This document shows positions 21,941 through 39,500 of a DNA stretch of 62,948 nt, piece after piece (within the stretch, counting starts at the first letter, position 1; the number at the start of each line of letters is the position of its first letter). Below the pieces are notes generated by a model that was not told where the DNA came from, made no database searches, and worked only from the letters and a program-made list of their open reading frames with translations. The translations under genes were made by a program, and so were the position numbers. The DNA is from Calditrichia bacterium (GTDB lineage: Bacteria; Calditrichota; Calditrichia; Calditrichales; Calditrichaceae): contig JALSTK010000073.1 of the NCBI GenBank assembly GCA_026983775.1, positions 1-62,948 of the forward strand, in the 5' to 3' direction.

Positions 21941-23203
21941 GTGTCAGAAATCTTAATAAAAAACGGACAACTGATTTACCCGGGCCGAACGGAAAAAGCG
22001 GATATTTTAATTCAAGATGAGAAGATAAGCCGGATTGCACCGACCCTGTCCGGTTCATACGAGCACATCATAGACGCCACAGGGAAATACATTCTGCCCG
22101 GTTTTATTGATTACGCATCCATTGCATGGGATTCAGCGCCGGAGACTCTAACCTCAATTTCACAAACCGCCCTGAACGGAGGGATCACCACTCTTTTCCT
22201 GAATCTGCCGGCAGATCCAAAGCAAGACATCGATCGAATCGAATCCCTTGCCGTTCAATCCTGCCGGACGGATTTTTCGTTTCATGGTACGCTTACTCAT
22301 TTTAGTGCATTGACAGCCGATTTTTTAAAGGACTGTGTGCAAAAAGGAATCTTGGGATTTCATATTTCGCTGCTCAACGAACCGGAATGGAGCGATGGTC
22401 GGATTCTTGCATTACTGTGGCAGCTTAAACAATTAGGCGGTACATTAATGGTCCATGCCGAGAATAAAGGTCTGGTGGATTTTTTGACGAATCGTTTACA
22501 AAAATTGCACAAAGACGGCCCTTCTTTTCATCCCTACACGCATCCGGCCGAGGCGGAACTGGAGGCGGTCACCCGCTTAATCACATTGAACCAATTCGTG
22601 GAATGTCCCCTCTATTTCACTCCGGTCACTACCACGCAAACCCTGCAACTATTACAAATGGCCAAGCAAAATAAGTTTCCGGTCTTCGCAGAAAGCCGCT
22701 TGCCTTATCTTCTATTCAATCAATCGGTTTATGAACAGGAAGAGGCCGGGCCATTCTGCCTTATTCCCTCTTTGCGAAGCAAAGCGGATCAACAAGCTCT
22801 GTGGGAAGCCGTCCGGGAGGGAACGATCGATGTCCTGTCGGCTCACTATGAATATAAAGAAGGAACAAAAAATACCGTTTCGAATCGAGAACCGTTTCCC
22901 GACTTCAGTCGGTTTTTTACCAGTCTCTTCTTCTCAAAAAAATTAAGTATGAACCAAATCATCCGGACCGTATCGGAGGAGCCGGCCCGTCTCTTCGGCT
23001 TGTTTCCGAGAAAGGGTATCTTACGGAAAGACAGCGATGCCGATCTGCTTCTTTTTGAACCGCACCGGCCGATTCCCGAATCCAAAGAGAAGTTATATTC
23101 ACCATTTCATTCCGTTCTCATACGGGGCCGATGGATGGTAAAGGAGCATCTGGCGTTCCCTTCCGGTCATTCCGCCGGTAAATTTATTCCCGCCCTTTTT
23201 TAA
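21941..23203 (+). CDS. Dihydropyrimidinase/dihydroorotase-like protein lacking metal ligands
   Basis: Amidohydrolase-fold protein of the hydantoinase/allantoinase/dihydroorotase group by its overall pattern: ILIKNGQLIYPG start, DATGKYILPGFID strand and the C-terminal GRWMVKEH...GKFIPALF. The catalytic centre is degraded. The HxH after GFID is Ala59/Ile61, the carbamylated-Lys site reads GFHIS, the HxS motif reads FTPVT, and the TDHAPH motif reads SAHYEYK; only the His of MVHAEN remains. It is therefore probably a non-catalytic homologue, like the inactive dihydroorotases that act as partners of aspartate transcarbamylase. GTG start with an AGGAAGAG ribosome site. A second copy of its 3' end lies at 26254-26415. 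Confidence 0.8.
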   Translation: MSEILIKNGQLIYPGRTEKADILIQDEKISRIAPTLSGSYEHIIDATGKYILPGFIDYASIAWDSAPETLTSISQTALNGGITTLFLNLPADPKQDIDRIESLAVQSCRTDFSFHGTLTHFSALTADFLKDCVQKGILGFHISLLNEPEWSDGRILALLWQLKQLGGTLMVHAENKGLVDFLTNRLQKLHKDGPSFHPYTHPAEAELEAVTRLITLNQFVECPLYFTPVTTTQTLQLLQMAKQNKFPVFAESRLPYLLFNQSVYEQEEAGPFCLIPSLRSKADQQALWEAVREGTIDVLSAHYEYKEGTKNTVSNREPFPDFSRFFTSLFFSKKLSMNQIIRTVSEEPARLFGLFPRKGILRKDSDADLLLFEPHRPIPESKEKLYSPFHSVLIRGRWMVKEHLAFPSGHSAGKFIPALF

Positions 23204-23478
23204 TAATTGATTTCAGGAAATCTTCTTTTTGAAGTATCGTTCTACCGGTCTGCAAGTGCTTATAATTATCTGAGCCGAGTTAAAACGTTTCAGTACGAAT
23301 CTGACCATTCGTGAATCGCTTTGTTTAAATTGCGGGAGAGCGGTTAGCAGCTGTGGATTTAAACCCCGCACCCGATAGATTTGGATGAAGAGTAGTTGCT
23401 GTTTTCATTGCCTGATTTGTTTTGTAAATAGGGCATGAATTTAACCCGGGTATCGTTGCCCGGCAATCCCTCAGGACA
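23204..23478. other. Intergenic region without recognised features
   Basis: 275 nt after the dihydropyrimidinase-like gene. No open frame, RNA motif or repeat that I can name. Confidence 0.4.
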
Positions 23479-24111
23479 TTATTTAATACCTTGATTTAAA
23501 AGAAAAAGGTTAGATTCTCCTTTTATTGGAAACTGAATATAAGCTTCTTGTGATTTTTCACCAAACGCATTGGCCATAAAATAATAATGGCTCTACTGGG
23601 GTTCTTGTGAAGTCAAATATTAAATAAAGACTGACAATATGATTTTACTGCTTCGTTCATTTTGCATTTAATAATAAAAGTGTCCGAAGGATACTAATGT
23701 AAGTAGCCGCAGGCGGAGCCTGTGGTAAAGCGGAAAAAGAGAGCGCGACGTTGAAGGCGTCGAATGTGGGACACAGAGCGTTCTAACGAAACAGGAGACC
23801 TTATACATTGAAAGGCCTGGTTTATTTTACCGTTTTGCGGTAACCCTATTCGGTTGCATCTTGCCAACAGGCTTCACTCCTGCCCGGCGGCTGACGGGTG
23901 TGGCTACTCATATTGCATCACTTCGTGATGATTTAAGGATGATATTTTTGCGGCGTTTAACCACAAAAAACCCACTAGAGCCATAATAATTAGAAAACTC
24001 CCGGGCGACTTCATCAGGAAGCTCATATTCGTGTCCGTTAATTCTTAAATAAATTTTTGAAACAACACTTTGTTCTTCTGCATAAGATAATGTAATAAAA
24101 ACAAAAAGCAT
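23479..24111 (-). pseudogene. Small secreted-protein gene split by a miniature transposable element
   Basis: A minus-strand gene begins with MLFVFITLSYAEE (signal-peptide-like) and runs to ...EVAREFSNYY, where the element at 23589-23982 interrupts it. Past the element the same frame resumes as FMANAFGEKSQEAY and stops at 23479-23481. Removing the element and one copy of the 8-nt target duplication rejoins the two halves in frame as a protein of about 76 aa. The interrupted frame now reads into the element and ends about 25 codons inside it. The region before the ATG has a good AAAGGAGG site 27 nt upstream but no in-frame start there, so the 5' end may also be damaged. Function unknown. Confidence 0.75.
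23589..23982 (+). mobile_element. Non-autonomous ISL3-type miniature element, copy A (394 bp)
   Basis: Left end GGCTCTACTGGGGTTCTTGT; right end is its imperfect inverted repeat (GGCTCTAGTGGGTTTTTTGT on the other strand). It is flanked on both sides by the identical 8-mer ATAATAAT, a target-site duplication. It has no coding capacity of its own. The interior holds several short hairpins. Copies B and C lie at 33444-33681 and 39117-39500. The 8-bp duplication and GGCTCT ends are typical of the ISL3 family, and an ISL3 transposase remnant lies 2 kb away. Confidence 0.88.
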
Positions 24112-24155
24112 GAGAAGTAAAGATTTTAATATAGCACATCCTCCTTTCAGTTGAT

Positions 24156-25598
24156 TTATTTTACGAATAAAAGCTTATGGTTTTGGGTTACCTTTTCGGT
24201 TTTTAAAACAGCCACATAAATCCCGCTGCTGACTACAGTTTCGCTGTTATTCCGGCCGTACCAGGCAAACGTATGTTGTCCGGCTTTTAGCGGATGATCG
24301 ACTAACAGACGGCTTATTTGTTGGCCTCGCACGTTATAAATTTCCAAACTTACTGTTTCCGGTTGTGAAAGTGTAAAGCGAATAAATGTCGAATTGTTAA
24401 AGGGATTGGGGAAGTTCCACAGATTATATTCTTTTGGAACAGCAGGATTTTTTTTATTTTTTATCCCTACCGGCGACGTATCCTGGAAGCGGCCCGTTCC
24501 GTCGTTATAAAGAATGTTTACATTGGAGGCAATCTCTTCATAAAGGGTGCGTACGGTAACCACATCGTTATAGCCGTTGCCGTCCAGGTCGGCGCAGAAT
24601 GATTTCCGCCATATCTCGCCGTAATTCGGGATCGGGAAAAACTCAGGGTCGGATAAAATAAAATTACCTTCATTATACAAAACATAGATACCGTCCAAAG
24701 CGGTATAAACCATATCGGGCAGGCTGTCGTTGTTCACGTCCGATACAACAAGCGTTGAAGTGGAAGGACTGAATTTTTTCTTTTCATGTAGAATAAAACT
24801 ATCTTCACCTGAATATTCGTAAGTAGTATTTGTAGTAAAGCTAAATATCAAATTTTCAGAAACAACCACATCCTTGTCGCCATCTTTATCCATATCCGTA
24901 AGAACAATATTATCTTTAAAGCCATTTTCTTCCAAAATGACCGCTTTAAAGGAATCCGGGTAGCTGAAATACACCCGGGTAGTCTGGGCACTGACCCCGA
25001 CATCGGCCCGACCGTCGCCGTTTATATCGCCGCAGGCTATATCGCTGGGGTAGTTTTCCTCATAATAATGGTAGTTAGGTTCAGAGAAGTTGCCGTTTCC
25101 GTCATTGTAAATCCAACCCCAGAACAAACCGTCATTTGAAGCAAAAACAATGTCAGTATCTCCATCTCCATCTATATCTCCACTTGAATAATAACCAACA
25201 CCTTCATTGGTATTTAGTGAAATAAAATTAGTATCTGTCAAATCACTATTATATATAATCGCTATATATTCATTATCATTTTCTTTATCATAATACTTTG
25301 CTATAATTTCCGGTTTTAGATTACTATCCAAATTACATGTAAAAATATTTGTTTGTCCTCCATAAAGATACAGGGAATCTGCTAAGGAAAAATCTCCAAC
25401 AGAATCCTGTATTAAAATAGATATCCCGGACCATTCCGTATTAAAATCATAGTTATGCCCAATAACCAGGTCCATATCGCCATCAAGGTCTAAATCAGCT
25501 GCAGTAACGGAAGCGGCAGCGGTGGGAACTTTGTATTCTGCGGCTATGGTGACGCCCAATAAAAAGATAAATATTGAAGTAGTAATCAGAAATTTCAT
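24156..25598 (-). CDS. Secreted FG-GAP/VCBS-repeat protein with T9SS sorting domain
   Basis: 480-aa exported protein. A signal peptide (about residues 1-20, ending VTIAAE) precedes FG-GAP/VCBS-like repeats with calcium-binding loops such as DLDLDGDMDL, DIDGDGDTDI, DINGDGRADV and DMDKDGDKDV, which suggest an integrin-alpha-like propeller. The last 80 residues are a T9SS type A sorting domain beginning NFPNPFNNS and ending KLLFVK. Likely surface-attached or released; ligand unknown. It lies upstream of the split small secreted-protein gene on the same strand, about 45 nt away, so the two were probably one transcript. Confidence 0.88.
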   Translation of the reverse strand: MKFLITTSIFIFLLGVTIAAEYKVPTAAASVTAADLDLDGDMDLVIGHNYDFNTEWSGISILIQDSVGDFSLADSLYLYGGQTNIFTCNLDSNLKPEIIAKYYDKENDNEYIAIIYNSDLTDTNFISLNTNEGVGYYSSGDIDGDGDTDIVFASNDGLFWGWIYNDGNGNFSEPNYHYYEENYPSDIACGDINGDGRADVGVSAQTTRVYFSYPDSFKAVILEENGFKDNIVLTDMDKDGDKDVVVSENLIFSFTTNTTYEYSGEDSFILHEKKKFSPSTSTLVVSDVNNDSLPDMVYTALDGIYVLYNEGNFILSDPEFFPIPNYGEIWRKSFCADLDGNGYNDVVTVRTLYEEIASNVNILYNDGTGRFQDTSPVGIKNKKNPAVPKEYNLWNFPNPFNNSTFIRFTLSQPETVSLEIYNVRGQQISRLLVDHPLKAGQHTFAWYGRNNSETVVSSGIYVAVLKTEKVTQNHKLLFVK

Positions 25599-25623
25599 AA
25601 TTTTTTACCTTTTATTGTTAAAT

Positions 25624-25728
25624 TTATCTTAACAGCAACATCCGTTTTGCGCTCACTGTGTTTTCCGTTTTTAAAATAATCATAAAAATCCCGCTGCTCA
25701 CCTCCTTTCCCTTATACCCCCCAAATTA
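25624..25728 (-). pseudogene. Remnant of a T9SS C-terminal sorting domain
   Basis: The minus strand encodes about 33 residues, GYKGKEVSSGIFMIILKT...KRMLLLR-stop, the usual last strands of a T9SS type A domain (compare VVSSGIYVAVLKTEK...KLLFVK of the neighbouring gene). An in-frame stop lies just upstream and there is no start or body. It is what is left of another T9SS cargo gene. Confidence 0.7.
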
Positions 25729-25919
25729 GCTGAGGATATACAATTTAAATTCAGTATTTATGTTTGTCCTGCCATTGTAAAACGCTATTATGTTATTTTT
25801 TCCCTTAATGCGGGTTTCAAAAGAATTCTAAAGCAATATAGATAGCTGTTTTAGCATCTGCAATAAGAATTTTAATTTTTATAAATATCTGCGTACTATC
25901 TTACTCTTCTTTCTTAAAA

Positions 25920-26273
25920 ATGAAAAAGTCATGGCTAGCGGATCAACAGCATTTTGACGGATTTGGAAAAGGCTGCTATATCGCCTTCTATCGCTTGGGC
26001 TTTAAAATCAAGAATATACAAACCGCGAAAATCCGCGCTCGCCCTATGAAAAAGGTTCCTAAGATGCTAAGCGAAAAACAAGAGTTGATAATGAATCGGT
26101 TTGACACAAATCCAAAACTTTCTTTCGGGATTGTAGAAGGATTTAACAATAAAGCCAAACCGACTATCAAAAAGGCATGCGGTTTTAAAGACGGAAAATA
26201 TCTGCAATACGCCTTGTATCTTACACTCGGAGAATTACCTATGCCTAGATTTACCCATAGATTTAACGGTTGA
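25920..26273 (+). pseudogene. ISL3-family transposase C-terminal remnant
   Basis: 117 codons. The second half has the ISL3 DDE transposase C-terminus: a run like LSFGIVEGFNNKAKPTIKKA, then GFKDGKYLQYALYLTLGELP and a final FTHRF. Full ISL3 transposases are about 400 aa with an N-terminal zinc finger and DDE residues; these are missing. The conserved Glu of GIVEGFNNKAK is the only catalytic position present. Terminal inverted repeats matching the nearby miniature elements are not intact here. It is a decayed insertion sequence, a plausible former source of transposase for the three miniature elements. Confidence 0.8.
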
Positions 26274-26415
26274 ACCGCAAGTACATCCACAAGGCGCTGA
26301 AAATCCACACATACCATTGCAATCTGTTTTCATCAGAGGTCGGTGGATAGTAAAGGATTACAAACCGCTGCAATCGAAACGAACTGCCGGAAAGTCCATC
26401 CCCGCCCTGTTTTAA
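26254..26415 (+). pseudogene. Duplicate 3' end of the dihydropyrimidinase-like gene
   Basis: In the frame ending at TAA 26413-26415 the sequence reads SVFIRGRWIVKDY, then KRTAGKSIPALF-stop. The gene at 21941-23203 ends SVLIRGRWMVKEH, then HSAGKFIPALF-stop. The match covers roughly the last 45 codons; upstream it merges with the ISL3 remnant. It is a paralogous fragment, or the tail of a lost second copy. Confidence 0.75.
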
Positions 26416-26505
26416 ACATTGCTTCAGGAATTAATTTTCTTAATGCATCGTTATAATCAATCGTAACATTAATCGTATCCAATATTAAGTTTTTTCGGAG
26501 ACAAT

Positions 26506-27036
26506 ATGCTTAAATTTATTATCGCAGGAGTTTTTATGTTCGCATTAAGCCTGGTAGCAGCCCCTCAATTGAAACCGGGTGATGCGGCGCCCGATTTTTC
26601 ATTGCCGGATGCAGACGGAAAAATACACACGTTAAAAGAGTATCGGGGAAAAATCGTCGTTCTCTATTTTTACCCCAAAGACGATACACCGGGTTGTACG
26701 GCAGAAGCCTGTAATATCCGCGATAACTACGCTGAATTACAAAAAGCCGGCCTTGTTATCTTAGGCGTCAGTTACGACGACGCTTCATCCCATCGGAAAT
26801 TTGCCGGGAAATACAAATTACCTTTCCCCCTCCTTTCGGACACCAAAAAAGAAGTGGCTGCCGCCTATGGTGCCAAAGGCACGCTCACCGGATTTCTGGT
26901 AGCACAACGCAAGACGTTCCTGATCGATAAAGACGGTAAAATCCTGCATATTTTTAATAAAGTGCAGACGAATGATCATACCCGGCAAATCCTGGATATT
27001 TTGAAAGAACTTCACCAGTCGCCTGACAAAAAATAG
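26506..27036 (+). CDS. Exported peroxiredoxin (Bcp/PrxQ type)
   Basis: Thiol peroxidase that reduces H2O2 and organic hydroperoxides, using thioredoxin-like donors. After a signal peptide (MLKFIIAGVFMFALSLVAA) the AhpC/TSA fold is complete. Peroxidatic Cys64 lies in the DDTPGCT motif, and a second Cys69 five residues later is the classic resolving Cys of the Bcp/PrxQ class. Length 176 aa including the signal. A periplasmic location is inferred from the signal. It stands alone and converges on the chrA gene. Confidence 0.93.
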   Translation: MLKFIIAGVFMFALSLVAAPQLKPGDAAPDFSLPDADGKIHTLKEYRGKIVVLYFYPKDDTPGCTAEACNIRDNYAELQKAGLVILGVSYDDASSHRKFAGKYKLPFPLLSDTKKEVAAAYGAKGTLTGFLVAQRKTFLIDKDGKILHIFNKVQTNDHTRQILDILKELHQSPDKK

Positions 27037-27128
27037 AAACGTTTTCATCTTCCGAAATTTTATAATTAGCACTTTTGCGTCATCTGAATTTGCATAAAGA
27101 ATGCATTGAAGCCTTCAAGCCGCATGGG

Positions 27129-28364
27129 TCAGTTTAAAACGATTCCAAACTGGTAACAACCGATGGATAGAATGATTCCAATCGCAAATATCCACAGAAT
27201 ATTAAGTTTAAGATAGCGGACGGCCAGGAAAGCGCCCACCGCCCAGATATAGGGTAAGGGTGAAGTGAGAGCTACCTTGCCCAGACTCAGCAAGACAAAG
27301 AGCAGCATACCTGTGAAGGAGGCCAGGACACCTTGAAGTGCCTGCCGGATGGGTCGCAGGTGTTTAATCTTGCCATAGATCTCGGAAACAATTAAAGTAT
27401 AAAAGAAAGACGGAAAGAACATGCCGAAGGTGGCCAGAGCACTGCCGGCTATGCCGCCCACTTTATAACCGATAAAAGTTGCGGTAATAAGGAAAGGTCC
27501 GGGGGTGATCTGCCCCATGGCAATACCGTCGGCAAATTGTTTCATGGTTAACCAGTGATGGGAGATGACCGCTTCCTGTTGTAGAAGGGGCATGATAGTA
27601 AACCCGCTACCGAAAGCCACGGCCCCTATTTTAAACATGGATAGTAAAAGTTTTGCCGAAGATTTCTCGAATATCAGTCCCGCTGCGATAATAGTAAAAA
27701 ATCCCGCGCCGGTGACAACGATTGCAAATATACGGTGACTCATTTTGCCGGGAATCATGGCAACATCCGAACCGTCCTCTTTCTCTCCTCTCTTAATATC
27801 CCGCAGCAAAGCAATTCCCAAAAAGATGGCCAGAACAATCACATAGAAAGCATTTACTTTAAAGAGCATTAGTAAAAAAGCCAATCCGCCAACGAGCGCT
27901 CCAGCTTTTGTTTTCAGATAGCGTTCACTGAAATCAATGAAAATATGAGCCACGATGCCTGTGACCATGGCTTCCAGAGCAATAAACAAAGGATGGATCC
28001 ATGATACCAGCCCGTAACTGAAATAAACCCACGATAAGACTACCATAAGTACATACGATGGCAGTAAAAAAACAAAACTGCCCAAAAGCGCACCGCTGAA
28101 TCCTCGGGTACGGTAAGCGCCATAGGTAGCCAGATTATACATAATGGGGCCGGGATACATTTGCACCATGCCCAGGCCCTCATCCAACTGCCGGCGAGTA
28201 AGCCATTTTTTGCCGATGATCAGCGCCTTAAGCTGCTGCAGGATGGCCATGCCATAGGCAGTTAAACCGATTTTAAAGAAAGCCCCCGTAAGTTTCCACA
28301 AAGAAGGCTCGGACGATTCTTGATTGCTATTTTTCATTTTCTTGCTTTCAATCTTTCTCCTCAT
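27129..28364 (-). CDS. chrA: ChrA-family chromate/anion transporter
   Basis: Inner-membrane CHR-family protein, 411 aa, with two homologous halves (about residues 20-200 and 215-405), the normal long-chain architecture. Each half has its family signature, GLGMVQMYPGPIMYNLATYGAY and the matching DGIAMGQITPGPFLITATFIGY region. Characterised members expel chromate using the proton-motive force; sulfate analogues are also handled. It is the last gene of the six-gene operon that starts at 31979, 9 nt after the ferredoxin gene. The link to the operon suggests export or exchange of an oxyanion. Confidence 0.9.
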   Translation of the reverse strand: MRRKIESKKMKNSNQESSEPSLWKLTGAFFKIGLTAYGMAILQQLKALIIGKKWLTRRQLDEGLGMVQMYPGPIMYNLATYGAYRTRGFSGALLGSFVFLLPSYVLMVVLSWVYFSYGLVSWIHPLFIALEAMVTGIVAHIFIDFSERYLKTKAGALVGGLAFLLMLFKVNAFYVIVLAIFLGIALLRDIKRGEKEDGSDVAMIPGKMSHRIFAIVVTGAGFFTIIAAGLIFEKSSAKLLLSMFKIGAVAFGSGFTIMPLLQQEAVISHHWLTMKQFADGIAMGQITPGPFLITATFIGYKVGGIAGSALATFGMFFPSFFYTLIVSEIYGKIKHLRPIRQALQGVLASFTGMLLFVLLSLGKVALTSPLPYIWAVGAFLAVRYLKLNILWIFAIGIILSIGCYQFGIVLN

Positions 28365-28373
28365 GGTTTCAAT

Positions 28374-29024
28374 TTAAGAAATTCTGTTTTCAGAAACGAG
28401 GACAACGCCGTTTTCCTTAAAAATAGTTTTAATTTTTTGCAAATAGGGCGTTACATCGCCATATTCGGTTGAGACCAGTCGGAATCGGCAATATGAAGGC
28501 GCTTTTTCTTTCCAGCAACTTTTTAAACCGGGCGTCTCGATGTTGAGGTACAAAACATCGCACGGATCGTTCTTGATGGCCTCGTATATTTTGGGAATGA
28601 TCCGGCGTTCACCAAAATGCCCGGTGGCTTCGATTTCGATGTTTGTCATTACGGAATTTAAAATGGATTCCGCTTTGGCCCGCGCTTCTTCGTACTCCTT
28701 TTTTGTTTTTTTCTCTTTGGCAATTTGACGCACTACTTTTAGAATCTTGTATTCTTTCTCCAATTTCTGCACGAATTCTTTGGGAGGAAATTCGATGGCC
28801 GCCGTGGGACAAATGGTTGCGCAGGTGGTACAGCCGACCAAACAATTGTAGGGCCGCTCGACGAGAGCTTTTCGGGTAGCATCCTCATACTCGAACACTT
28901 CCCGGCCACAGCTTACATAACAAAGCTGACAACCAATGCATTTTTCTTCCACAATCTTCGGGAACCACTCGATTTCCATGCGAGGAATCCCATGCCATTG
29001 GGTTTTGCTTAAATCTTTAGCCAT
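28374..29024 (-). CDS. Ferredoxin-like protein, two [4Fe-4S] clusters plus C-terminal domain
   Basis: Cysteines are at C29-x2-C32-x2-C35-x3-C39 and C61-x3-C65-x2-C68-x3-C72 (the last followed by Pro), the pattern of an 8Fe-8S bacterial ferredoxin with a non-standard spacing in cluster two. Residues about 85-216 form an extra domain with two further cysteines (LKSCWKEKAPSYC) that I do not recognise. A GGAGGCGGAG ribosome site precedes the ATG. It sits between the UspA gene and chrA and presumably feeds electrons to a redox step of the operon; the partner is unknown. Confidence 0.8.
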   Translation of the reverse strand: MAKDLSKTQWHGIPRMEIEWFPKIVEEKCIGCQLCYVSCGREVFEYEDATRKALVERPYNCLVGCTTCATICPTAAIEFPPKEFVQKLEKEYKILKVVRQIAKEKKTKKEYEEARAKAESILNSVMTNIEIEATGHFGERRIIPKIYEAIKNDPCDVLYLNIETPGLKSCWKEKAPSYCRFRLVSTEYGDVTPYLQKIKTIFKENGVVLVSENRIS

Positions 29025-29095
29025 TGCTCCGCCTCCATATACTTTAACGTGGAAATGCTTACCGCTAAGAAGGTAACGAATCGTTAGTTGACGAA

Positions 29096-29584
29096 TTAGT
29101 GTGTTGAACTATTCGGATGGTTCTTAGGCTTAACCACCAAAACCGGTACATTGCCATGGGCCAGCACACGACCGGTGGTGCTTCCGAACAGTTTTTCCAC
29201 AAAACCGTGTTCACCGTGCGAGCCCATAACGATTAGCGATACGTGTAAATTATCCGCCGCTTGAATGATTTTTTGATAAGGGATACCCACTTCTACAATA
29301 AGTTCCGTTTTAAACGAAAAATGTGTAATCTCTTTTTCCAACTCTTTTAAACGGTCAAATCCATTTTCCAGCATCCGTTTAAGAACATCATGCCTGGATT
29401 TTTCCAGCGGCTCTTCCGGATGAATCTGGGCCTCCACTTCCCATTGAACATCCACATCGCGCTCGTCGTACACGTGCAGTAAAATCACTTCTTCCGTCCC
29501 GGCTTCTTTCAATTTTTTTACATATTCCAAAGCCTCTTCGGCCGAGGCAGAGAAATCGGTGGGATACAGAATTTTCCGAAACAT
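29096..29584 (-). CDS. Universal stress protein (UspA family)
   Basis: Cytosolic alpha/beta protein, 162 aa. The typical start RKILYPTDFSASAEEAL and the ATP-binding motif MGSHGEHGFVEKLFGSTTGRVL (G-2x-G-9x-G-S/T) are both present. It starts 2 nt after the permease stop, so it is translationally linked to that gene. In many bacteria Usp proteins accompany transporters and modulate them under stress; here that is an inference from the operon. Confidence 0.92.
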   Translation of the reverse strand: MFRKILYPTDFSASAEEALEYVKKLKEAGTEEVILLHVYDERDVDVQWEVEAQIHPEEPLEKSRHDVLKRMLENGFDRLKELEKEITHFSFKTELIVEVGIPYQKIIQAADNLHVSLIVMGSHGEHGFVEKLFGSTTGRVLAHGNVPVLVVKPKNHPNSSTH

Positions 29585-29586
29585 GA

Positions 29587-30606
29587 TCAGGCTCCTTCGC
29601 TGTTTATGTTCGTTTCCAAAATCGCGTCTTGTTTGTTCCGTTCGGCGAATTTAGAGAATAGCTTGTACCAAATGGAAGCAAAAGGCATTTGGAACAACAT
29701 GCAGGGCACAACCCCCAACAAGGCCATCGGACCGAAAGCAGCAATGGCCAGGCCCATGGCGATCGATAAGTTTTTCGTTGAAAATCCGTAGGTGATGGGA
29801 ATGGCCTTTTCGTGCGGTTCCTTTAATATTTTAATCGCAAAATAATAGGAAAAAGGATAAGCTACACCGTAATAAATCAGCATACCCAGCGCCGGGAAAA
29901 TAATAAGTCCCGGTTCTCTGTAAATCAGATGCGCTTGAACACTCATGGCAACGAAAACCATGTACAGGGCCAATAAAGAAGAAATAAGATGGGAAATAGG
30001 CATGATTTTAACAATGCCTTTCCAGGTATATTTTTTGCTGACCGCCTTTTGCGTGAGATAGGCCAGGACCAAGGGAATAACGACCATGACAATTATTTTA
30101 ATAAGCAATGTGGTGGTATGGACATCTACCCGACTGCCGACAAATAATTTCATTCCCAACGGTACCCAAATAATGGAAACCAAAAGGGTCACCGTTTGAA
30201 TCGCCGTAGCCAAACCGATGTTCGCCCCCAGAATGCCCGTCCAATAGGTAATCATACCACCGGGAGGCACAATGGAAGCTAACAGTAATCCCGTATATAA
30301 ATTGGGATTCTTAGTAAAAACCGTTGCAACGGGAATCATCAGTAAGGGCGCAACCAATAGCGAAAGAATGCTGCCGTAAATCATCCCTTTGGGATAAATA
30401 AATGCATTTTTCAATTCATCCATGCGCATGGTAATCAGCATGGCATAAATCATGATAATAACCGAGGGCAAAATGGAAGCCTTGATGAAATGAATTTGTG
30501 CTCTATCCAATTGCAAACCTATCCAATAGCCGAAGACCAACACCGCCAAAATGATGGCGGGCATATATTTTTTTATGAAAGCATCCAAACGTTTAATCAT
30601 TGCCAT
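29587..30606 (-). CDS. BASS/Acr3-superfamily permease
   Basis: Polytopic inner-membrane protein with about 10 hydrophobic segments, 339 aa, of the bile acid:sodium symporter/arsenical resistance-3 superfamily (SIVPPGGMITYWTGI segment and VAYPFSYYFAI end). Acr3 arsenite pumps have a conserved Cys in the fourth membrane segment. That position region here reads SIVPPGGM without Cys, so I do not call it Acr3. Linked to the DGC protein (13 nt upstream) and UspA (2 nt downstream). The substrate is unknown, possibly a metalloid or sulfur anion. Confidence 0.8.
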   Translation of the reverse strand: MAMIKRLDAFIKKYMPAIILAVLVFGYWIGLQLDRAQIHFIKASILPSVIIMIYAMLITMRMDELKNAFIYPKGMIYGSILSLLVAPLLMIPVATVFTKNPNLYTGLLLASIVPPGGMITYWTGILGANIGLATAIQTVTLLVSIIWVPLGMKLFVGSRVDVHTTTLLIKIIVMVVIPLVLAYLTQKAVSKKYTWKGIVKIMPISHLISSLLALYMVFVAMSVQAHLIYREPGLIIFPALGMLIYYGVAYPFSYYFAIKILKEPHEKAIPITYGFSTKNLSIAMGLAIAAFGPMALLGVVPCMLFQMPFASIWYKLFSKFAERNKQDAILETNINSEGA

Positions 30607-30619
30607 GAATCACTTCCTT

Positions 30620-31036
30620 TCATTTAGGAACGAGCTCGTGCTTTTTCTTTTCCATTAGTTCCTGCGCCAGTTTTTTTACCTTTTCAATCACATCGCGGGC
30701 AAGCAGTTCAACAGTTTCTTGATCATAATCCAGACCAGGTATTTTTTCCACACCGTAATCTTCATCCGGAGCGATACGCAGAGCCGGAACAAAACCACCC
30801 AATCTGATCGTTTCCAATACGCAGGCCTCCTTGCAGCCATCAATAACGACAATCGCGTCAGCCTCCTGGAATTTGCCCGCCGGTTTCAGCCCCGGAAAGA
30901 TAGCCGGCAGACAATTGATATTGGCATAAGGCAGAGCCTTATCCACGCGTTTGGCAATTTCCGCCGACATTTGGCCGATATTGGAACGCCCGGCACAATT
31001 GGCGATGGAAATTTTAATTTCAAGTGGTTGCTTCAT
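30620..31036 (-). CDS. DGC-domain putative zinc-binding protein
   Basis: 138-aa soluble protein. The diagnostic DGC motif (Asp-Gly-Cys, Cys68) is followed by Cys72; Cys14 (IANCAGRSN) and Cys42 (INCLPA) complete four conserved cysteines that should bind a metal or form disulfides. This family (PF08859-like) has no known reaction but recurs in metal and metalloid resistance loci. It starts behind a GGGGAG ribosome site and lies 40 nt after the outer-membrane protein gene. A cytosolic metal chaperone or sensor for the adjacent permease is a reasonable guess. Confidence 0.8.
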   Translation of the reverse strand: MKQPLEIKISIANCAGRSNIGQMSAEIAKRVDKALPYANINCLPAIFPGLKPAGKFQEADAIVVIDGCKEACVLETIRLGGFVPALRIAPDEDYGVEKIPGLDYDQETVELLARDVIEKVKKLAQELMEKKKHELVPK

Positions 31037-31076
31037 ACGGTTCTTCTCCCCTTCTTTTATGTTTGTTTAATGATAT

Positions 31077-31979
31077 TCACAATAAAAAATATAAACCCAG
31101 CCACGTTTCATAATCGGCGCTGAATTTAACCCTGGCATCTACGGTAACCGGCACAACCCATTGAACCAAAAAGGTACGTCGCAATCGGTACTGAAGCGCC
31201 GGAATAAATTGGAAAAGGTGGTAGCTGGGATTAACCCTGTCCCGGGCAATGGATTTGTAAAGAAATGTGCTTTCGGCAATGAAGCGTCGGTTTAAATTGT
31301 AAGCCGTACTCCACGACAAACTGACCACATCCCCCAAATCCATATGTTGCTTATTTTTACCGCGGGCAATGTAAAAAGCCGACCAACGCAGGTCCCATTT
31401 GCCCGTTCCCCATTCCGGCATCAGGGCAAAACCGGCATCGAAGCTGCCCGTACCAAGCGGCATTTTTGTAAGGGCAAGATGTCCGTCATCGGCCTTTCCT
31501 GTCGGGGATTTGGTAAACAGCAATCCGGAGAACAGAAACCGATGTGTTTTGTTGAAGTAAAATTTGTAAAGCAATGCACCGATTACATCGCCGATACCCT
31601 CGCCGGATTTTTCTATTTTAAGCGATTTAAAACGTTTGTGAATGTAAGGCAGATTTACGATGGCCGTAAAGCGATTTAGGATGCCATAGCGGACTTTTAA
31701 AATGTAAGAATCTGCCGTAAATTCCGTCCCGCCGGGCAAACTCGTCATTTTGCCTGTTTTGGAATTGAGCATTCGGGTAAAATGAGGGAAAACCGCGTAC
31801 CCGCGAAAAACCCAGTGCCCCCGGGGTAAAGTCTTGGCCGGAATGCCGTACAAAGGAGGGCGGGGCCTCAGTTTTTGTGCCGATGCCAAATGAATATGGA
31901 AAGCCAACAACAGAATCAAAACGAGACAGAAAATTCTTAATTTACTCATATTCCGCTTCTTCTCTATAGTGAACAACAT
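31077..31979 (-). CDS. Putative outer-membrane beta-barrel protein
   Basis: 300-aa exported protein with a signal peptide ending near LASAQ, then alternating aromatic/hydrophobic strands and a final Leu-Phe-type end (WLGLYFLL), which suits BAM insertion. The pattern (GIGDVIGALLYKFY, LPRGHWVFRG and similar) resembles Phenol_MetA_deg-type transporter-like barrels. First gene of the operon; the start at 31979 has AAGGGAAGGA before it, and an alternative ATG at 31949 would give a shorter signal. It may provide an exit or entry pore for the operon's substrate. Exact family uncertain. Confidence 0.6.
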   Translation of the reverse strand: MLFTIEKKRNMSKLRIFCLVLILLLAFHIHLASAQKLRPRPPLYGIPAKTLPRGHWVFRGYAVFPHFTRMLNSKTGKMTSLPGGTEFTADSYILKVRYGILNRFTAIVNLPYIHKRFKSLKIEKSGEGIGDVIGALLYKFYFNKTHRFLFSGLLFTKSPTGKADDGHLALTKMPLGTGSFDAGFALMPEWGTGKWDLRWSAFYIARGKNKQHMDLGDVVSLSWSTAYNLNRRFIAESTFLYKSIARDRVNPSYHLFQFIPALQYRLRRTFLVQWVVPVTVDARVKFSADYETWLGLYFLL

Positions 31980-32466
31980 CGTTCCTTCCCTTTCTTAGCC
32001 AGTTCCAAATTTCGGTTGACGAGCATTCCGGTTGATATATACTCAAGAATAGCCGTATCCGGGAATTCCGCCAACCTTTATTCTTATATATGCGCATATT
32101 GGCATTAATATAAGCATAAAAATCAGTTTGTCAATACCTGAATAGATTTTCTGAATCTACATGAGAGATATTTTATTTTTTTCTCTAGTTTTTATGCTTC
32201 TTTCTTCAACGGTATGGGTCCAGCAAGTCAAGCCACTTTTAAGTAAAGGTTCTACCCGTCGGATTTCATCATAAGTTGTTACTCTATTTTGCAATTGTAC
32301 AAGTTTACAATTATAAAGTAAAAAAACTTTCTTAATTGTGTTTCATAAAACGCTTGCTCATATCAAACGCACACTCGTTTCTTTTTTTATTTGCTTGAAC
32401 AATTATGCAATAACTTGCAAAGAAACGAAAAATTTTTAAGCTGTTAGCCCGGTTAAATGAAAAACC
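31980..32466. other. Intergenic region with operon promoter
   Basis: 487 nt upstream of the six-gene operon and downstream of the NifX-like gene. It holds the ArsR-type candidate operator (32087-32113). Further upstream, around 32401-32420, ATTATGCAATAACTTGCAA contains half-sites resembling the operator before the arsR gene at 33247, but this is weak. Confidence 0.5.
32087..32113 (-). promoter_or_regulatory. Candidate ArsR operator/promoter of the six-gene operon
   Basis: Plus-strand TATATGCGCA then TATTGGCATT then AATATAA. It aligns with 37501-37528 at 24 of 28 columns, including the uninterrupted blocks TATATGCGC, TATTG and AATATAA. It contains the palindrome ATATGCGCATAT and lies about 108 nt before the outer-membrane protein start, oriented as at the second site. 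The other copy sits directly upstream of an arsR gene, so the natural reading is a shared binding site. Confidence 0.65.
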
Positions 32467-32886
32467 TTAATCCGTGCGTTCTTCAACCAGATTGTGAATC
32501 TTTTTCTCTATCAATGCCGAAACGGATTCTTCGATGTCCTGATAATCGGTTAAGATCACATTCAATCCGGCAGCCTTAAAACTCTCGTAAGCTCCGGAAC
32601 CCATGCCGCCGGCGATTAAAACATCGCAGTCGGCAATCTCAGCGGCCATCATGGAATGACGTCCCCGGGCCTCGGCACCGTAGCCATGGCGTCCCTGCGG
32701 ATCACGATGCTCCTGTTCATCCGGCCTGGCCTGCTGCTGCGGGGCAAAATGACCGGTACCCCGTTCCCGTAGCGCACTTTCGGTTACAACTCCATTCTCT
32801 ATCGTAACAATTTTATAATAGCGTGAGCGGCCGAAGTGTTGACTAATCGTTCGACCGTCATTGGTAACAATGGCAACTTTCATCAT
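32467..32886 (-). CDS. NifX/NifB-type (MTH1175-like) dinitrogenase-cofactor domain protein
   Basis: About 139-aa soluble protein of the Nitro_FeMo-Co fold. MKVAIVTNDGRTISQHFGRS is the typical start, and IADCDVLIAGGMGSGAYESFKAAGLNVI the typical second half. The His-rich middle common in this group appears as a Gln/His/Arg-rich stretch. The start is ATG at 32886 (or the next codon) behind GGGAGAG; longer forms overlap arsR and are less likely. It follows arsR by 28 nt. No nif genes are here, so a nitrogenase role is unlikely; a metal or Fe-S cluster carrier is the better guess. Confidence 0.85.
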   Translation of the reverse strand: MMKVAIVTNDGRTISQHFGRSRYYKIVTIENGVVTESALRERGTGHFAPQQQARPDEQEHRDPQGRHGYGAEARGRHSMMAAEIADCDVLIAGGMGSGAYESFKAAGLNVILTDYQDIEESVSALIEKKIHNLVEERTD

Positions 32887-32914
32887 GTACTCTCCCATTC
32901 TATTAATAAGATAT

Positions 32915-33247
32915 TTAAAAAAATTCTTGAAATCGATTATACCAGTCTTTAGAAATCTGTGTAGCGGTTTCAATAATTTGAAAAACCCGCTGATCGGCAA
33001 TTGCAAAATAGGATGCAACGCCCTCCTTACGGGCCGTCACCAGTCCCACATTACGTAACAGCATCAGATGGCGGGAAATCACCGAAGCATCGAGATGTAA
33101 TTCATCAATAATTTGCTGGGAGCCTTTTTCCCCTTCTTTTAATAATCCGATGATTTTTAAGCGTTGATCGCTGGCCAGGGCCATAAAAAAACGGCTGCGG
33201 GGATCCGTCATGGGCCCCATCATTCCCCTCTTCATTCCTCTCGGCAT
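32915..33247 (-). CDS. ArsR-family transcriptional regulator (no metal-site cysteines)
   Basis: 110-aa winged-helix repressor with helix-turn-helix LHLDASVISRHLMLLRNVGLV and wing segment VTARKEGVASYFAIAD. It has no cysteine, so it is not the classic arsenic/cadmium type. The N-terminus is Met/Arg rich (MPRGMKRGMMGPM), perhaps an unusual copper- or redox-sensing tail, but that is speculative. It probably represses its own operon with the NifX-like gene through the palindrome 14 nt upstream. Confidence 0.9.
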   Translation of the reverse strand: MPRGMKRGMMGPMTDPRSRFFMALASDQRLKIIGLLKEGEKGSQQIIDELHLDASVISRHLMLLRNVGLVTARKEGVASYFAIADQRVFQIIETATQISKDWYNRFQEFF

Positions 33248-33261
33248 AATTGTTCCATTTC

Positions 33262-33285
33262 ATTATTGCGTAAATGTGCAATAAT
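33262..33285 (-). promoter_or_regulatory. Palindromic candidate operator of arsR (33247)
   Basis: Perfect 8-bp arms ATTATTGC and GCAATAAT, 8 nt apart, ending 14 nt before the start codon. The size and position fit autoregulation by the ArsR protein it precedes. It differs from the two sites at 32087 and 37501, so two separate ArsR specificities are likely. Confidence 0.6.
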
Positions 33286-33443
33286 ATAAATTAAAAGGAG
33301 ACCGAAATCAACCCTTGCGTGTTTTTTAATATAAAATAAAAGAATAATTTACAGTGCGTAGACTCATACCCTACGTTCGATCCGAACTTCATCCGTCGAA
33401 AAGGGATCAGAGTTGTCCCCGCAAACCTTCCCTTTTAAAAAAT

Positions 33444-33681
33444 GGCTCTACCGGGTTTCTTATGAAGCCGTATATTAACTGAAGACGGATAAAAGGAATG
33501 AAACAATTTTTTATGGTTTCGTTCATCTTGTATTTAAAGACAATAGTATCCGAAGGATACGAATATGAGTAGCCACCGGCTTCGCTCCTGCCCGGCGGCT
33601 AACGGGTGTGGCTACTCATATTGCATCACTTCGTGATGATTTAAGGATGCGGCGTTTAACCACAAATATCCCGGTAGAGCC
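33444..33681 (+). mobile_element. Non-autonomous ISL3-type miniature element, copy B (238 bp)
   Basis: Ends GGCTCTACCGGG and, inverted, CCCGGTAGAGCC. Flanks are TAAAAAAT on the left and AAAAAAAT on the right (7 of 8 identical, but A-rich). It lacks about 146 nt present in copy C; the missing segment is bounded in copy C by the direct repeat CCACAGGCTT at 39245 and 39390, so B looks like a deletion product. The 14-nt inner inverted repeat ATATGAGTAGCCAC is complete. Confidence 0.85.
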
Positions 33682-33735
33682 AAAAAAATTATACTCGGTA
33701 TAACGAGATATATCGGGATATGCCGGACTCGTTCC

Positions 33736-34092
33736 TTAATGCAGTACGATCATCTTCCGGGAGATAGAAATACCGCTGGAAGTAGACAAACGATAGATAT
33801 ACACACCGCTTGCCAGACGTTGGGCGGTAAAGTTTACCCGGTATCGACCGGAGGGGAAATTGCCGCGGATCAGGGTAGCCAATTCCCTTCCGTTAAGGTC
33901 ATATACTTTCAAACTCAGGGTAGTTTGCACCGGAAGTTCAAAGGCTATTACCGTACTCCGGGAGCCTTCCATCGTGGAGATGCCCCTACCGAAGGGATTC
34001 GGATAGTTTTGGAATAAATGAAATTGCCTGATGACTGAAGAATTCGGTTCTTTAACTCCCGTATAGACCGGGAAGGCAATTCCCTGCCCTCT
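33736..34092 (-). pseudogene. Out-of-frame T9SS sorting domain of the DUF3160 protein
   Basis: In the frame ending at 33736 the sequence reads TGVKEPNSSVIRQ, then FHLFQNYPNPFGRG, then a complete type A domain (LPVQTTLSLKVYDLNGREL and so on) to KMIVLH-stop. The upstream DUF3160 frame runs into nonsense (GASPRWKAPGVR) over the same bases. A single -1 shift around 34060-34095 would join them. Either a frameshift mutation, programmed slippage, or a sequencing error. Confidence 0.8.
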
Positions 34093-36314
34093 GCATATTT
34101 TCTTCCCCGGGCATCACTTAAAAAAATGTTGACCCAGTCCGGCCGTTCAGGTAAGCGGCCGTTCTCAACTCGTGTCGCCCACTCTTCATCCGTCAGTCGA
34201 TTAAAATTATCGGTGACTGTTTGGTAATAGGACATAACCGGCCCCACAAAAGCAAGCGGCAGAGCATCCGAGTCCGGTGCATTCGCCAGGAAAACACCGA
34301 GATTAACCTTTCCGGTAGCTACGTGTAAAATTTTGCCTACCGGATTCCCCTCAAAATCGGTGGGTTGAGTGTGGACGTCGGCAATGATATAATTAAAACA
34401 GGCGGCATCTTCCGGATAAAAATAAAGCGAAGAATACCATCCCGTATAAGGGGGTTCCCCACTCTCCATCCCCTCGAATAACATCTTTTTCAGCCATTGC
34501 CGCTCTTCTTCGGAAAGAGGGACATGTTGTAATTCCTTGCGGGCTATGGCTTCCAATTTTTGCATCACATCCCGGAATTTGGGAAAGAAATGATGAATCC
34601 GGGCCATTTCGATTCCGTTTTCGGGAAAGTCTGCAAAATAGTTTTCCGCCTTTTCAGCAAACCCGGCCAGTCGGGCATACAGCTCCGGTACCGGTTCAAC
34701 CAATGAGTAAGGATACGAACAACCCGTTGCCCCGGTATAGGATTGTTTGGCGTAGAGAAGATTATCATGGCGCAATTGGGCCCAGGAGGCCAGTTGGGCA
34801 TTCATTCTACTTTGATGCCAGGCCGCACTTTGCATAAAAAAGGGCCGATCCTTTTGATTTTGCGGGGGATTCAGAGCGCGAATGGAGTTCAGCCACACAT
34901 TATACAGCGACAGATTCCAAAATGAGGCATTATAAGAATCGACCAGATAGCGCAGGGCGTCCAATTGAGAAGCGTATTTGTATTGATCAATTTCGTTTTT
35001 CAGGAGATACAGGGCGTCATCATTGCCCAGTACAAATAAAATATCCAGAGGGTCCGGCAAGGGACGCCATATTTTTTGGCCCTGATACACAATTCGATCA
35101 AAAACCACATTGAAAAAGATATAGGAATCAAGAATGAACCGTTGGCCCATCAGACGAAACGAGACAGGCAGAGGAGCCGGTTCGCTGTTAAAGGGGTTAA
35201 CCATCATAATCTGGGAGAGGATTTTTTGATCGGAACCGGGATAATTTATCAGGGCCTTTTGATAATCCTCATAGACAGAATCCGTTAACAATTGGCGGAC
35301 GTCAGTCAGGTCTAAGGAATCCAGTAATTCTTTATATTCCCGAGGAGTCAGATTATCCGATTCACCGACCATAAAGGTAATGATTTCATCGTTCTGATTC
35401 AGGACAGGGCGCGACCGGGCCCTATCTAATAATTCGTTCAGTAGAAAGGAACCCAGATTCATGCGCTGTATTTGTTCCTTGCTCCAGGGTTCTTCATACG
35501 GATTTTCCGGGGGCGGAGTTAGCAAGAAATCAATACGCCCCAGCCACATCATGGCTTTAAAATAGTCGCGCAGTTCATCCCGTGTGTAGTGTCCCCTTAC
35601 CTTAAACTGGCTAAAATCCAGGGTACGGTAATGATCGGAGAAGAGCGGCAGGGAAATAACCTGCTCGTCCTGGATGGCCTGCCAAATCTGATCTACCTGG
35701 TTTTGATCCGTGAATTGAGGGGATAATTCCCGACCGTTGATCAGAGAGCGAAAGATGGTCACATACAGATCCACATCCCGGAGTGCCGGGCCGAGATCAT
35801 TCTCGGAATCATATTTGTCTTTCAGCGCCGGAAAGGATGCATAAAGATTTTCTGCCAATTCGATTAAGTTCGGTTTTAAGACACTGATCTCCAGGGCGGC
35901 GAGAATTTGATCGTACGACATATGCAGGGCATGAAGAATGGCGTCGGAAGAGATAAATACCGGCAAATCATTGGCGTAAATTTGATGAAAGGCCTTGCCG
36001 AAACAATCATAATTCAGTCGTTCGCTTACCACAAAATAATTCTGCTTAAGCAGTTCCAGCTCCTCCGAAGTCAAAGCGAATTTTATTTTGATCGAATCGA
36101 GGTATTTAAAGCGATTTAAATCGGTATTCGCCTGGCGGCCTTTATAGTAGGGGGCGGATAAGGGAAACTGACTTTGTAATTGTTCGTAAGTTAAATCCTG
36201 ATTTTGTTGCAGAAAGTTCTCATAGTCATCAACGGAAAATTCACTCTGGCCCACAATGGGGGACTGCCAGATACCCAATAACATCGCCACCAGTAAAATG
36301 ATGAACGATTTCAT
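33948..36314 (-). CDS. Secreted DUF3160 protein, C-terminus shifted out of frame
   Basis: 788 codons. Signal peptide (about residues 1-22, ending IVGQS), then the DUF3160 domain with NYFVVSERLNYDCFGKAFHQIY and the typical FISSDAILHALHMSYDQIL segment, continuing to about residue 745. The function of this family is unknown; it occurs in secreted proteins of FCB and archaeal genomes. Beyond about residue 745 the reading becomes implausible, while a T9SS domain is intact in another frame. So the gene as sequenced encodes an unsorted protein unless ribosomes shift. Single gene between a miniature element and a thioredoxin-like gene. Confidence 0.85.
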   Translation of the reverse strand: MKSFIILLVAMLLGIWQSPIVGQSEFSVDDYENFLQQNQDLTYEQLQSQFPLSAPYYKGRQANTDLNRFKYLDSIKIKFALTSEELELLKQNYFVVSERLNYDCFGKAFHQIYANDLPVFISSDAILHALHMSYDQILAALEISVLKPNLIELAENLYASFPALKDKYDSENDLGPALRDVDLYVTIFRSLINGRELSPQFTDQNQVDQIWQAIQDEQVISLPLFSDHYRTLDFSQFKVRGHYTRDELRDYFKAMMWLGRIDFLLTPPPENPYEEPWSKEQIQRMNLGSFLLNELLDRARSRPVLNQNDEIITFMVGESDNLTPREYKELLDSLDLTDVRQLLTDSVYEDYQKALINYPGSDQKILSQIMMVNPFNSEPAPLPVSFRLMGQRFILDSYIFFNVVFDRIVYQGQKIWRPLPDPLDILFVLGNDDALYLLKNEIDQYKYASQLDALRYLVDSYNASFWNLSLYNVWLNSIRALNPPQNQKDRPFFMQSAAWHQSRMNAQLASWAQLRHDNLLYAKQSYTGATGCSYPYSLVEPVPELYARLAGFAEKAENYFADFPENGIEMARIHHFFPKFRDVMQKLEAIARKELQHVPLSEEERQWLKKMLFEGMESGEPPYTGWYSSLYFYPEDAACFNYIIADVHTQPTDFEGNPVGKILHVATGKVNLGVFLANAPDSDALPLAFVGPVMSYYQTVTDNFNRLTDEEWATRVENGRLPERPDWVNIFLSDARGRKYAEGRELPSRSIRELKNRILQSSGNFIYSKTIRIPSVGASPRWKAPGVR

Positions 36315-36420
36315 GGCATTCTCCTCAAGATAGTAACTTATAAAAAGAGCACTAACGATTTAAATATAGAGGATGCGATTGCGGAAATCAAGGGACAATA
36401 AAATTATATTTCGGGTATGG

Positions 36421-37002
36421 TCAGTCTTCTATCCAGGGCCACATGCGGGCTTCGGGGCTTTGGGGATATAATTCCCGAATCTGTCGCATATGTGCCCGGA
36501 ATTGTTTATTATCCCAGGTCTGCAGATAGTTTATCATGCCCATGCGAAAGAGGAGTGCGGAAGCACGGGGATTGTCCGCGAAAAGGTCCAGACCTTCCTG
36601 CAGAACCTGTTTAGCGTGGGAATATTGGCCACGGGGAATCAGATACTCGGCCAGTCCGATACGCAGTACTACCCGAAAATCCTCGATCTCTAAAAATCCG
36701 GCTTGTTGAAAATAGGACTGACCTTTATAGTCCAGCACATAGAAAGACGGTGTCCAGACAGCTGCATATCGAGATCGTATCTTTCGATCCTTACGGATAT
36801 CCTGGCGCAGGCAGATAAACCAGTCGTGCATTTCCTTTTTCACCATAAGATCGGGATAAACGGAAGTATATAATTTTTTACACCCGGAGCAAGACTCGCG
36901 ATGAAATTGAAGCAGAACGGGTTTTCGTTCTTTGGCAGATTGTTTGAGAGCCGACTCATATTCGAAGAGCCAGTTCTGCCAGATATCGGTTTCCATAATC
37001 AT
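36421..37002 (-). CDS. Thioredoxin-like protein with TPR-like C-terminal half
   Basis: 193 aa. The N-terminal thioredoxin fold has a redox CxxC (Cys38-Ser-Gly-Cys41 in HRESCSGCKKL) and the cis-Pro segment VWTPSFYVL. The C-terminal half (about 110-193) is helical with TPR-like repeats. No signal peptide, so cytosolic. It follows the cysteine-type arsR by 56 nt on the same strand and is probably in its operon. A role in thiol supply or reduction linked to metalloid stress is likely but unproven; it is not ArsC. Confidence 0.82.
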   Translation of the reverse strand: MIMETDIWQNWLFEYESALKQSAKERKPVLLQFHRESCSGCKKLYTSVYPDLMVKKEMHDWFICLRQDIRKDRKIRSRYAAVWTPSFYVLDYKGQSYFQQAGFLEIEDFRVVLRIGLAEYLIPRGQYSHAKQVLQEGLDLFADNPRASALLFRMGMINYLQTWDNKQFRAHMRQIRELYPQSPEARMWPWIED

Positions 37003-37058
37003 TCCTTACCTGGATACCGGAAAAAGCCAAAAAGAGAACATAGTAATCGTAAAATGAA

Positions 37059-37484
37059 TTAACCATGAAATTTCGAACTGTTTCTCTTTCCTTTTTCCTG
37101 TTTACTTAAGGATCCCTCTTTCTCGATGAGGGCATAGCCAAGCACACAACGTCCGGCTTCACGTTTGGCCAACCGGTCATTGAGCCGCTTAATATCTTCG
37201 CCATATTTTTGTTTAAAATGCTTTTCAATGACCGCCATCAGGTCGGCCGTGCAAGGCGAAGCGTTTCGATCGAGTGAATAATAAATCCATGTTCCAAAGC
37301 GTTCGGTAGTCATCAAACCGATATTTTTAAGAACGGTAAGATGACGGGAAATCTGATATTGAGGTACAAGCATGGCGTCGGTCATTTCACAGACACAAAT
37401 CGCCTCTTTACTCTGTACAAACAGATTAACTAATCGCAGACGGGTTTCGTCACCCAACGCTCTGAACAATCTTAAAAAATCCAT
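37059..37484 (-). CDS. ArsR-family regulator with As(III)-type cysteine pair
   Basis: 141-aa winged-helix repressor. Cys30 and Cys32 in the AICVCEMTD segment correspond to the arsenite site ELCVCDL of the classical ArsR; the HTH is VPQYQISRHLTVLKNIGLM. The C-terminus extends about 30 residues beyond the core and has two more cysteines. Arsenite or another thiophilic ion would release it from DNA. Its own promoter carries the operator that is repeated upstream of the six-gene operon. Confidence 0.92.
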   Translation of the reverse strand: MDFLRLFRALGDETRLRLVNLFVQSKEAICVCEMTDAMLVPQYQISRHLTVLKNIGLMTTERFGTWIYYSLDRNASPCTADLMAVIEKHFKQKYGEDIKRLNDRLAKREAGRCVLGYALIEKEGSLSKQEKGKRNSSKFHG

Positions 37485-37500
37485 ATCGTTCCATTCCCAT

Positions 37501-37528
37501 TATATGCGCTTATTGACATGTAATATAA
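37501..37528 (-). promoter_or_regulatory. Candidate operator upstream of the As-type arsR
   Basis: Plus-strand TATATGCGCT then TATTGACAT then GTAATATAA, beginning 16 nt before the arsR start codon. On the gene strand a TATAAT lies at its edge, so binding would block RNA polymerase. Near-copy of 32087-32113 (24 of 28 aligned columns). Confidence 0.65.
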
Positions 37529-39116: not shown

Positions 39117-39500
39117 GGCTCTACCGGGTTTCTTGTGAAGCTGTATATTAATGAAGACGGATAAAAGGAATTAAACAATTTTTTATTGTTTCGTTCATCT
39201 TGTATATAAAAACAATAGTATCCGAAGGATACGAATATGAGTAGCCACAGGCTTTGCCTGTGGTAAAGCGGAAAAAGAGAGTTCGACGCTGAAGGCGTCG
39301 AATGTGGAACACAGAGCGTTCTAACGAAATAGGATACCCTATACATTGAAAGGCCTGGTTTATTTTAACCCTATTCGGTTGCATCTTGCCCACAGGCTTC
39401 GCTCCTGCCCGGCAGCTGACGGGTGTGGCTACTCAAATTGCATCATTTCGTGATGATTTAAGGATGCGCGACGTTTAACCGCAAGAATCCCGGTAGAGCC
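39117..39500 (+). mobile_element. Non-autonomous ISL3-type miniature element, copy C (384 bp)
   Basis: Ends GGCTCTACCGGG-T-TTCTTG and the inverted GGCTCTACCGGG-A-TTCTTG (19 of the first 20 match). The flanking octamers CGTTACTT and AATTTATT do not match, so the duplication has decayed or recombination has occurred. The interior contains hairpins such as GTATCC-gaa-GGATAC, TTCGACGC/GCGTCGAA and CATCAtttcGTGATG, and an inner inverted repeat GAGTAGCCAC/GTGGCTACTC. No protein is likely; the overlapping minus-strand frame is spurious. Confidence 0.88.

Follow-up and report, generated by a model that had tools for sequence, protein, structure and literature searches.

A miniature ISL3-type element transposed into a secreted-protein reading frame in a Calditrichia genome

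Our analysis covered a window of 62,948 nucleotides, positions 1 to 62,948 of contig JALSTK010000073.1 from a Calditrichia bacterium. In this window an amidohydrolase gene and a gene for an FG-GAP repeat protein converge, and between them lie the two parts of an ORF that is split by a 394-bp insert (Table 1). The FG-GAP gene is upstream of the split ORF and the two probably constitute one operon. The original prediction had described this neighbor as a T9SS protein, and its sorting domain did score above the TIGR04183 cut-off. On the plus strand, positions 26313-26456 repeat the 3′ end of the amidohydrolase gene in diverged form (67% over 144 bp and 50% over 42 amino acids). The 144-bp match extends past the stop codon, and this stub is either a duplication or a lost paralogue.

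Table 1. Coordinates of the element, the ORF that it splits, neighboring features and further copies in the window.
Feature	Position	Strand	Basis or remark
Non-autonomous ISL3-type MITE, 394 bp	23589..23982	+	inverted ends, octamer duplication, copies in the genome, ends like those of ISL3 insertion sequences
Left terminal inverted repeat GGCTCTACTGGGGTTCTTGTG	23589..23609	+	21-bp imperfect pair with right end
Right terminal inverted repeat GGCTCTAGTGGGTTTTTTGTG	23962..23982	-	21-bp imperfect pair with left end
Target-site duplication, left copy ATAATAAT	23581..23588	.	identical to right octamer
Target-site duplication, right copy ATAATAAT	23983..23990	.	identical to left octamer
5′ part of split ORF: signal peptide and motif IYLRINGHEYELPDEVAREF	23991..24132	-	ATA 24132 or ATG 24111 start; similarity
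3′ part of split ORF, FMANAFGEKSQEAYIQFPIKGESNLFLLNQGIK then stop	23480..23588	-	joined frame; homologue not found
FG-GAP repeat protein, T9SS type A sorting domain	24156..25598	-	TIGR04183 33.3 bits, cut-off 23
ISL3 3′ remnant with GGTTCAACCGTTAAATCTATGGGTAA end, like C154 copies	25935-26272	+	adjoins FG-GAP gene
Amidohydrolase gene	21941-23203	+	counterpart of the 26313-26456 stub
Third element copy, internally deleted, 238 bp	33444..33681	+	octamers match 7/8
Second element copy, inside larger shared repeat	39117..39500	+	sequence match

Identical octamers had been reported to bracket the insert, and we found ATAATAAT on both sides of it. An exact 8/8 octamer match at a spacing of 360-450 bp was computed to arise at about 1e-5 per random window position. 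The terminal repeats GGCTCTACTGGGGTTCTTGTG and GGCTCTAGTGGGTTTTTTGTG sit within a longer inverted pair of 30 nt with 83% identity, and an ORF survey revealed no gene-like ORF within the element.

The window belongs to a 4.03 Mb draft genome of 179 contigs (G000). This genome contains at least 40 long matches to the element with 79-100% identity, a count that is a lower bound since 40 of 88 candidates were scored. Allowing up to two mismatches, we counted 92 sites for the end motif versus 19 for a reversed control pattern. The matches formed 60 clusters in 56 fetched stretches and the window, some of which were internal palindrome matches rather than separate copies; 42 were end-to-end copies. 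When the 8-bp flanks of these 42 copies were compared at fixed ends with no end shifts allowed, 13 pairs were exact, 6 had one mismatch and 23 had 2-7 mismatches. The exact octamers were 87% A+T, compared with 56% for the window. None of the copies examined contained a transposase. We aligned the 37 copies longer than 330 bp, leaving out five shorter ones. Mean pairwise identity was 88.5%, the nearest neighbor of a copy was 91-97% identical, and the 21-pair end helix was paired in 88.7% of cells. Six copies (window positions 39021-39765 and L040, L054, L060, L061 and L062) share flanks of up to about 174 bp on the left and about 280 bp on the right, and thus were copied inside a larger repeat. 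Another non-coding repeat of about 890 bp, 90-92% identical among three loci of this genome (L035 372-1253, L069 and L072), opens with the left ~170 bp of the element and continues with other repeat-like sequence. Among at most 11 candidates scored per genome, the element was found in none of 59 other genomes, all of them from outside the genus.

As DNA, the window copy folded better than shuffled sequences (z -4.1). However, the alignment of copies held double-sided changes at only 2 of 56 predicted pairs, and the structure comprising the ends and an internal 16-bp stem showed no covariation excess (0.069 versus 0.071 in shuffles); on these grounds an RNA function of the element was rejected. 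Rfam returned a single match with an E-value up to 1 across positions 23000-40000, to SR1 (29.1 bits, gathering threshold 45), which we take as chance. The hairpin-rich interior, present in 37 copies that are about 88% identical to one another in a genome that would have lost the mobilizing IS, might be more than transposon ballast and have been domesticated as a terminator, small RNA or DNA cruciform at gene ends, some of them those of T9SS genes; we regard this as very improbable.

A scan of GTDB genome contigs for the first 21 bases of the element gave a match only in the Calditrichota MAG Dive96_bin3.89, on two contigs. In that genome the end motif terminates a 1288-bp IS that encodes an intact transposase of 410 aa, which scored 314 bits against the NCBIfam ISL3 model NF033550 (cut-off 180) and 241 bits against the Pfam ISL3 model PF01610 (cut-off 23), with PF14690 and PF13542 also above cut-off. 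The single copy that could be read end to end there has octamers that do not match. An identical transposase occurs in G036, which is probably the same MAG. In addition, G005, a single-contig genome of 4,978,541 bases from the family to which the window belongs, carries 16 complete copies of a related IS whose transposase has 74% protein identity to that of Dive96_bin3.89, and 15 of the 16 are flanked by exact 8-bp A+T-rich duplications. The left consensus of the element family agrees with the left ends of the G005 and G036 elements at 20 of 24 positions each, and the right consensus agrees with their right ends at 18 (G005) and 21 (G036) of 24. Moreover, the element and both IS share the same asymmetry, GTGAA on the left and GTGG on the right. 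The likeness is confined to the ends, the interiors being dissimilar. The 32 end sites in G005 form exactly 16 pairs, so no miniature copies were detectable in that genome at two mismatches. Thus, G005 has the IS without MITEs and G000 has the MITEs without the IS.

No complete IS of the partner type was found in G000, a 179-contig draft that could miss one, and we therefore infer the mobilizing source from the relatives. The Pfam ISL3 model matched seven places in G000. An intact tandem pair on contig C154 was rejected as the partner since it ends in GGTTCTCTTGGCAAATCTATGGGTAA rather than in the ends of the element and its transposase is 30% identical to that of the partner; a copy on contig C139, decayed by one TAG and one TAA codon and 32% identical, was also rejected. 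The C154 pair consists of two complete copies in direct tandem (L066 2173-3542 and 3612-4982) that are 99.6% identical and about 1440 bp apart from start to start. Elsewhere in the genome, on contig C87, direct repeats opening with GGTTCTATT are spaced about 124 bp apart (L081 785-1404).

ISL3 elements generally generate 8-bp duplications and have GGCTCT-like ends, and 8-bp duplications are also made by other families, for example IS6 and IS1595. An origin of the element in such a non-ISL3 family would account for the finding that G000 contains no ISL3 transposase bearing the ends of the element and that its own intact ISL3 copies end differently. However, the left-to-left and right-to-right agreement with two different ISL3 insertion sequences, at 18-21 of 24 positions, together with the same end asymmetry and the same 8-bp A+T-rich duplication, makes this origin extremely unlikely. 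The G000 elements are an orphan ISL3-type MITE family, and the window element presumably was mobilized in trans by an ISL3-family transposase like those of the relatives. The claim that a real transposition had taken place was thus borne out by the inverted ends, the 8-bp duplication, the dozens of copies and the matching autonomous IS in relatives. We conclude that the insert at 23589-23982 is a miniature transposable element that was placed by transposition, and that the description of this event as transposition into an ORF stands.

We then considered the split ORF. The original prediction held that the upstream minus-strand frame ends with EVAREFSNYY at the insertion site. The frame does read as described up to the octamer, but it has no stop codon there and runs on into the element, forming a 67-aa hybrid ORF at 23908-24111; no open frame passes right through the element. 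As predicted, deletion of 402 nt, the element and one octamer, which is divisible by three, allowed the frame to continue with FMANAFGEKSQE to a stop codon, giving a joined ORF of 76 aa from ATG 24111. A ribosome binding site, AAAGGAGG, is located 7 nt ahead of an in-frame ATA codon at 24130-24132, seven codons upstream of the ATG and about 24 nt past the FG-GAP gene. The predicted signal-like N-terminus depends on the start: from ATA, which yields a joined ORF of 83 codons, the signal peptide appeared regular by eye, whereas the ATG falls in the middle of the signal and leaves only about 11 residues of it, none of them basic.

The precise in-frame repair had been put forward as support for a real gene. 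As a control, the flanks of the 42 end-to-end copies were joined either in the true register or shifted by one or two bases (84 trials). An ORF of 76 or more codons that crossed the junction resulted from 7 of the 42 true joins and from 13 of the 84 frame-shifted joins. Because shifted joins did as well, the in-frame join alone is no evidence for a gene, and this part of the original prediction was not supported. More generally, the measured control shows that, in A+T-rich DNA, restoring a frame by taking out an insert does little to prove that a gene was there.

Homology gave different results for the two halves. No homologue of the joined protein was found in 40 genomes of the class, GTDB contigs, viral contigs or plasmids, a set that included no second species of the genus; 132 stretches of the GTDB contigs matched the search pattern and none was confirmed. 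The rejoined protein had been expected in other genomes, and its absence is weak evidence, as the genomes searched lay outside the genus. Pfam and NCBIfam gave nothing above cut-off for the joined protein, and no homologue of the 3′ half was found in the genomes searched. In contrast, among the 40 class genomes the 5′ half matched a protein of G019 (E 6e-5) and, weakly, proteins of G006 (E 0.16) and G016 (E 0.5). These matches lie at the extreme N-termini of mutually related secreted proteins of about 1500 aa, which have in common with the 5′ half a signal peptide and an LR.NGH motif. A profile of these three proteins, built without the window sequence, ranked the window frame first of 6011 (E 1.2e-7, the next being 3.5), and the frame retained an E-value of 1.2e-6 when the signal peptide was removed. 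Since the three proteins were picked because they matched, the profile E-values are flattered, and the match of three related proteins at the same place seems the stronger point. The N-terminal profile also matched a 757-aa protein on contig C2 of G019 (E 2.7e-6). Weak matches occurred in other genomes; of four loci examined (L161, L162, L163 and L170), the match at L162 was apparently limited to the signal-peptide part. The genes for the ~1500-aa proteins (L115, L116 and L117 in G019, G006 and G016) each lie downstream of an ORF of 266-386 aa on the same strand, and the only domain recognized in the G006 protein is a T9SS sorting domain at its tail. Judged by this similarity to the N-termini of large secreted proteins in relatives, the 5′ half is genuine secreted-protein coding sequence.

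The likeness to the ~1500-aa proteins stops at the insertion site, as none of them could be aligned past NYY. Homologues ending naturally at this position were thus not found; the relatives of the 5′ half run on for about 1400 residues that are unlike the 3′ half. This suggests that a larger gene was truncated here, not that the locus held a gene for a small protein. The first 700 residues of the large protein left no other trace in G000.

An alternative is that a functional gene, encoding a small secreted protein of 76-83 aa, stood intact behind the T9SS FG-GAP gene until the element disrupted it. The in-frame join with its frame open throughout, the only frame open across the whole 3′ half, the good ribosome binding site close behind the upstream gene and the signal peptide are consistent with it, as are the weak codon signal of the 3′ half (shuffle p 0.011) and a 130-aa lipoprotein-like ORF in G002 with weak full-length similarity across the junction (E 0.018, 30%). 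However, the codon score of the 5′ half was not clearly above shuffles (p 0.13), an ATA is found where the start codon is expected, joins of this kind were not unusual in the control, no homologue of the joined protein was recovered from the genomes, viral contigs and plasmids searched, and the proteins related to the 5′ half are large. The small gene was also predicted to follow FG-GAP T9SS genes elsewhere, and no small gene lies downstream of the one good relative of the FG-GAP neighbor, in G031. On balance we consider an intact small gene unlikely. Plain insertion between two convergent genes, with the joined ORF arising by chance from A+T-rich flanks, is less likely still and in our view quite improbable. 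In the control, chance joins commonly reached 76 codons or more, and the element family otherwise lies mostly outside genes. Besides the window copy, 2 of the 13 joins at exact duplications reached 76 codons, both being 5′ extensions before a gene start. Nevertheless, the 5′ half is recognizable as the N-terminus of a known type of secreted protein, and for this half an intergenic origin is largely refuted.

A leftover stump is at least as likely as a working small gene, and we favor the stump, with some uncertainty, because of the ATA start, the unmatched tail, the remnant-rich neighborhood and the fact that the large protein family was found nowhere else in G000. Our overall reading, which we consider moderately probable, is that an ISL3-type MITE inserted into a secreted-protein ORF that probably was already a decaying 5′ stump. 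According to this model, the MITE would have moved by a cut-and-paste reaction in trans, driven by an ISL3-family transposase like that of the 1288-bp IS still complete in related Calditrichota. As the anatomy shows, it entered an AT-rich octamer and duplicated it. The target ORF, as the similarity to the ~1500-aa relatives shows, opens like a large secreted-protein gene, and this gene most likely was already truncated and decaying. Insertion would then have split the stump, such that translation from it would now run into the element and end there after about 24 foreign codons.

The mechanism of insertion is ordinary biology. As far as we searched the MITE/ISL3 and Caldithrix transposase literature, this MITE family and its ISL3 partner are undescribed. 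The main text of a review of MITEs does not mention ISL3 (PMC10969869), the sections consulted of a Caldithrix abyssi paper (PMC5317091) describe an 18-nt palindrome that is not the window element, and those of PMC9208149 describe no such element. Rickettsia palindromic elements, in the portion of the review that covers them, can yield in-frame fusions when inserted into an ORF (PMC10969869). Unlike these elements, the window element offers no open passage, the frame ending inside it. The G000 elements are a clear case of an orphan MITE family from a phylum that has received little study, and the IS of the relatives is their probable power source. Prokaryotic MITEs are short, non-coding elements with inverted ends, a duplicated target, tens of copies and a structured interior, and the element resembles them in size, inverted ends, target duplication, copy number and structured interior. 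Unlike the ISL3 insertion sequences of G005 and Dive96_bin3.89 (NF033550, PF01610), it lacks a transposase and is unlike them throughout its interior, but it shares with them inverted repeats beginning GGCTCTAC.GGG.TT..TGTG, the asymmetry between left and right ends, and 8-bp A+T-rich duplications.
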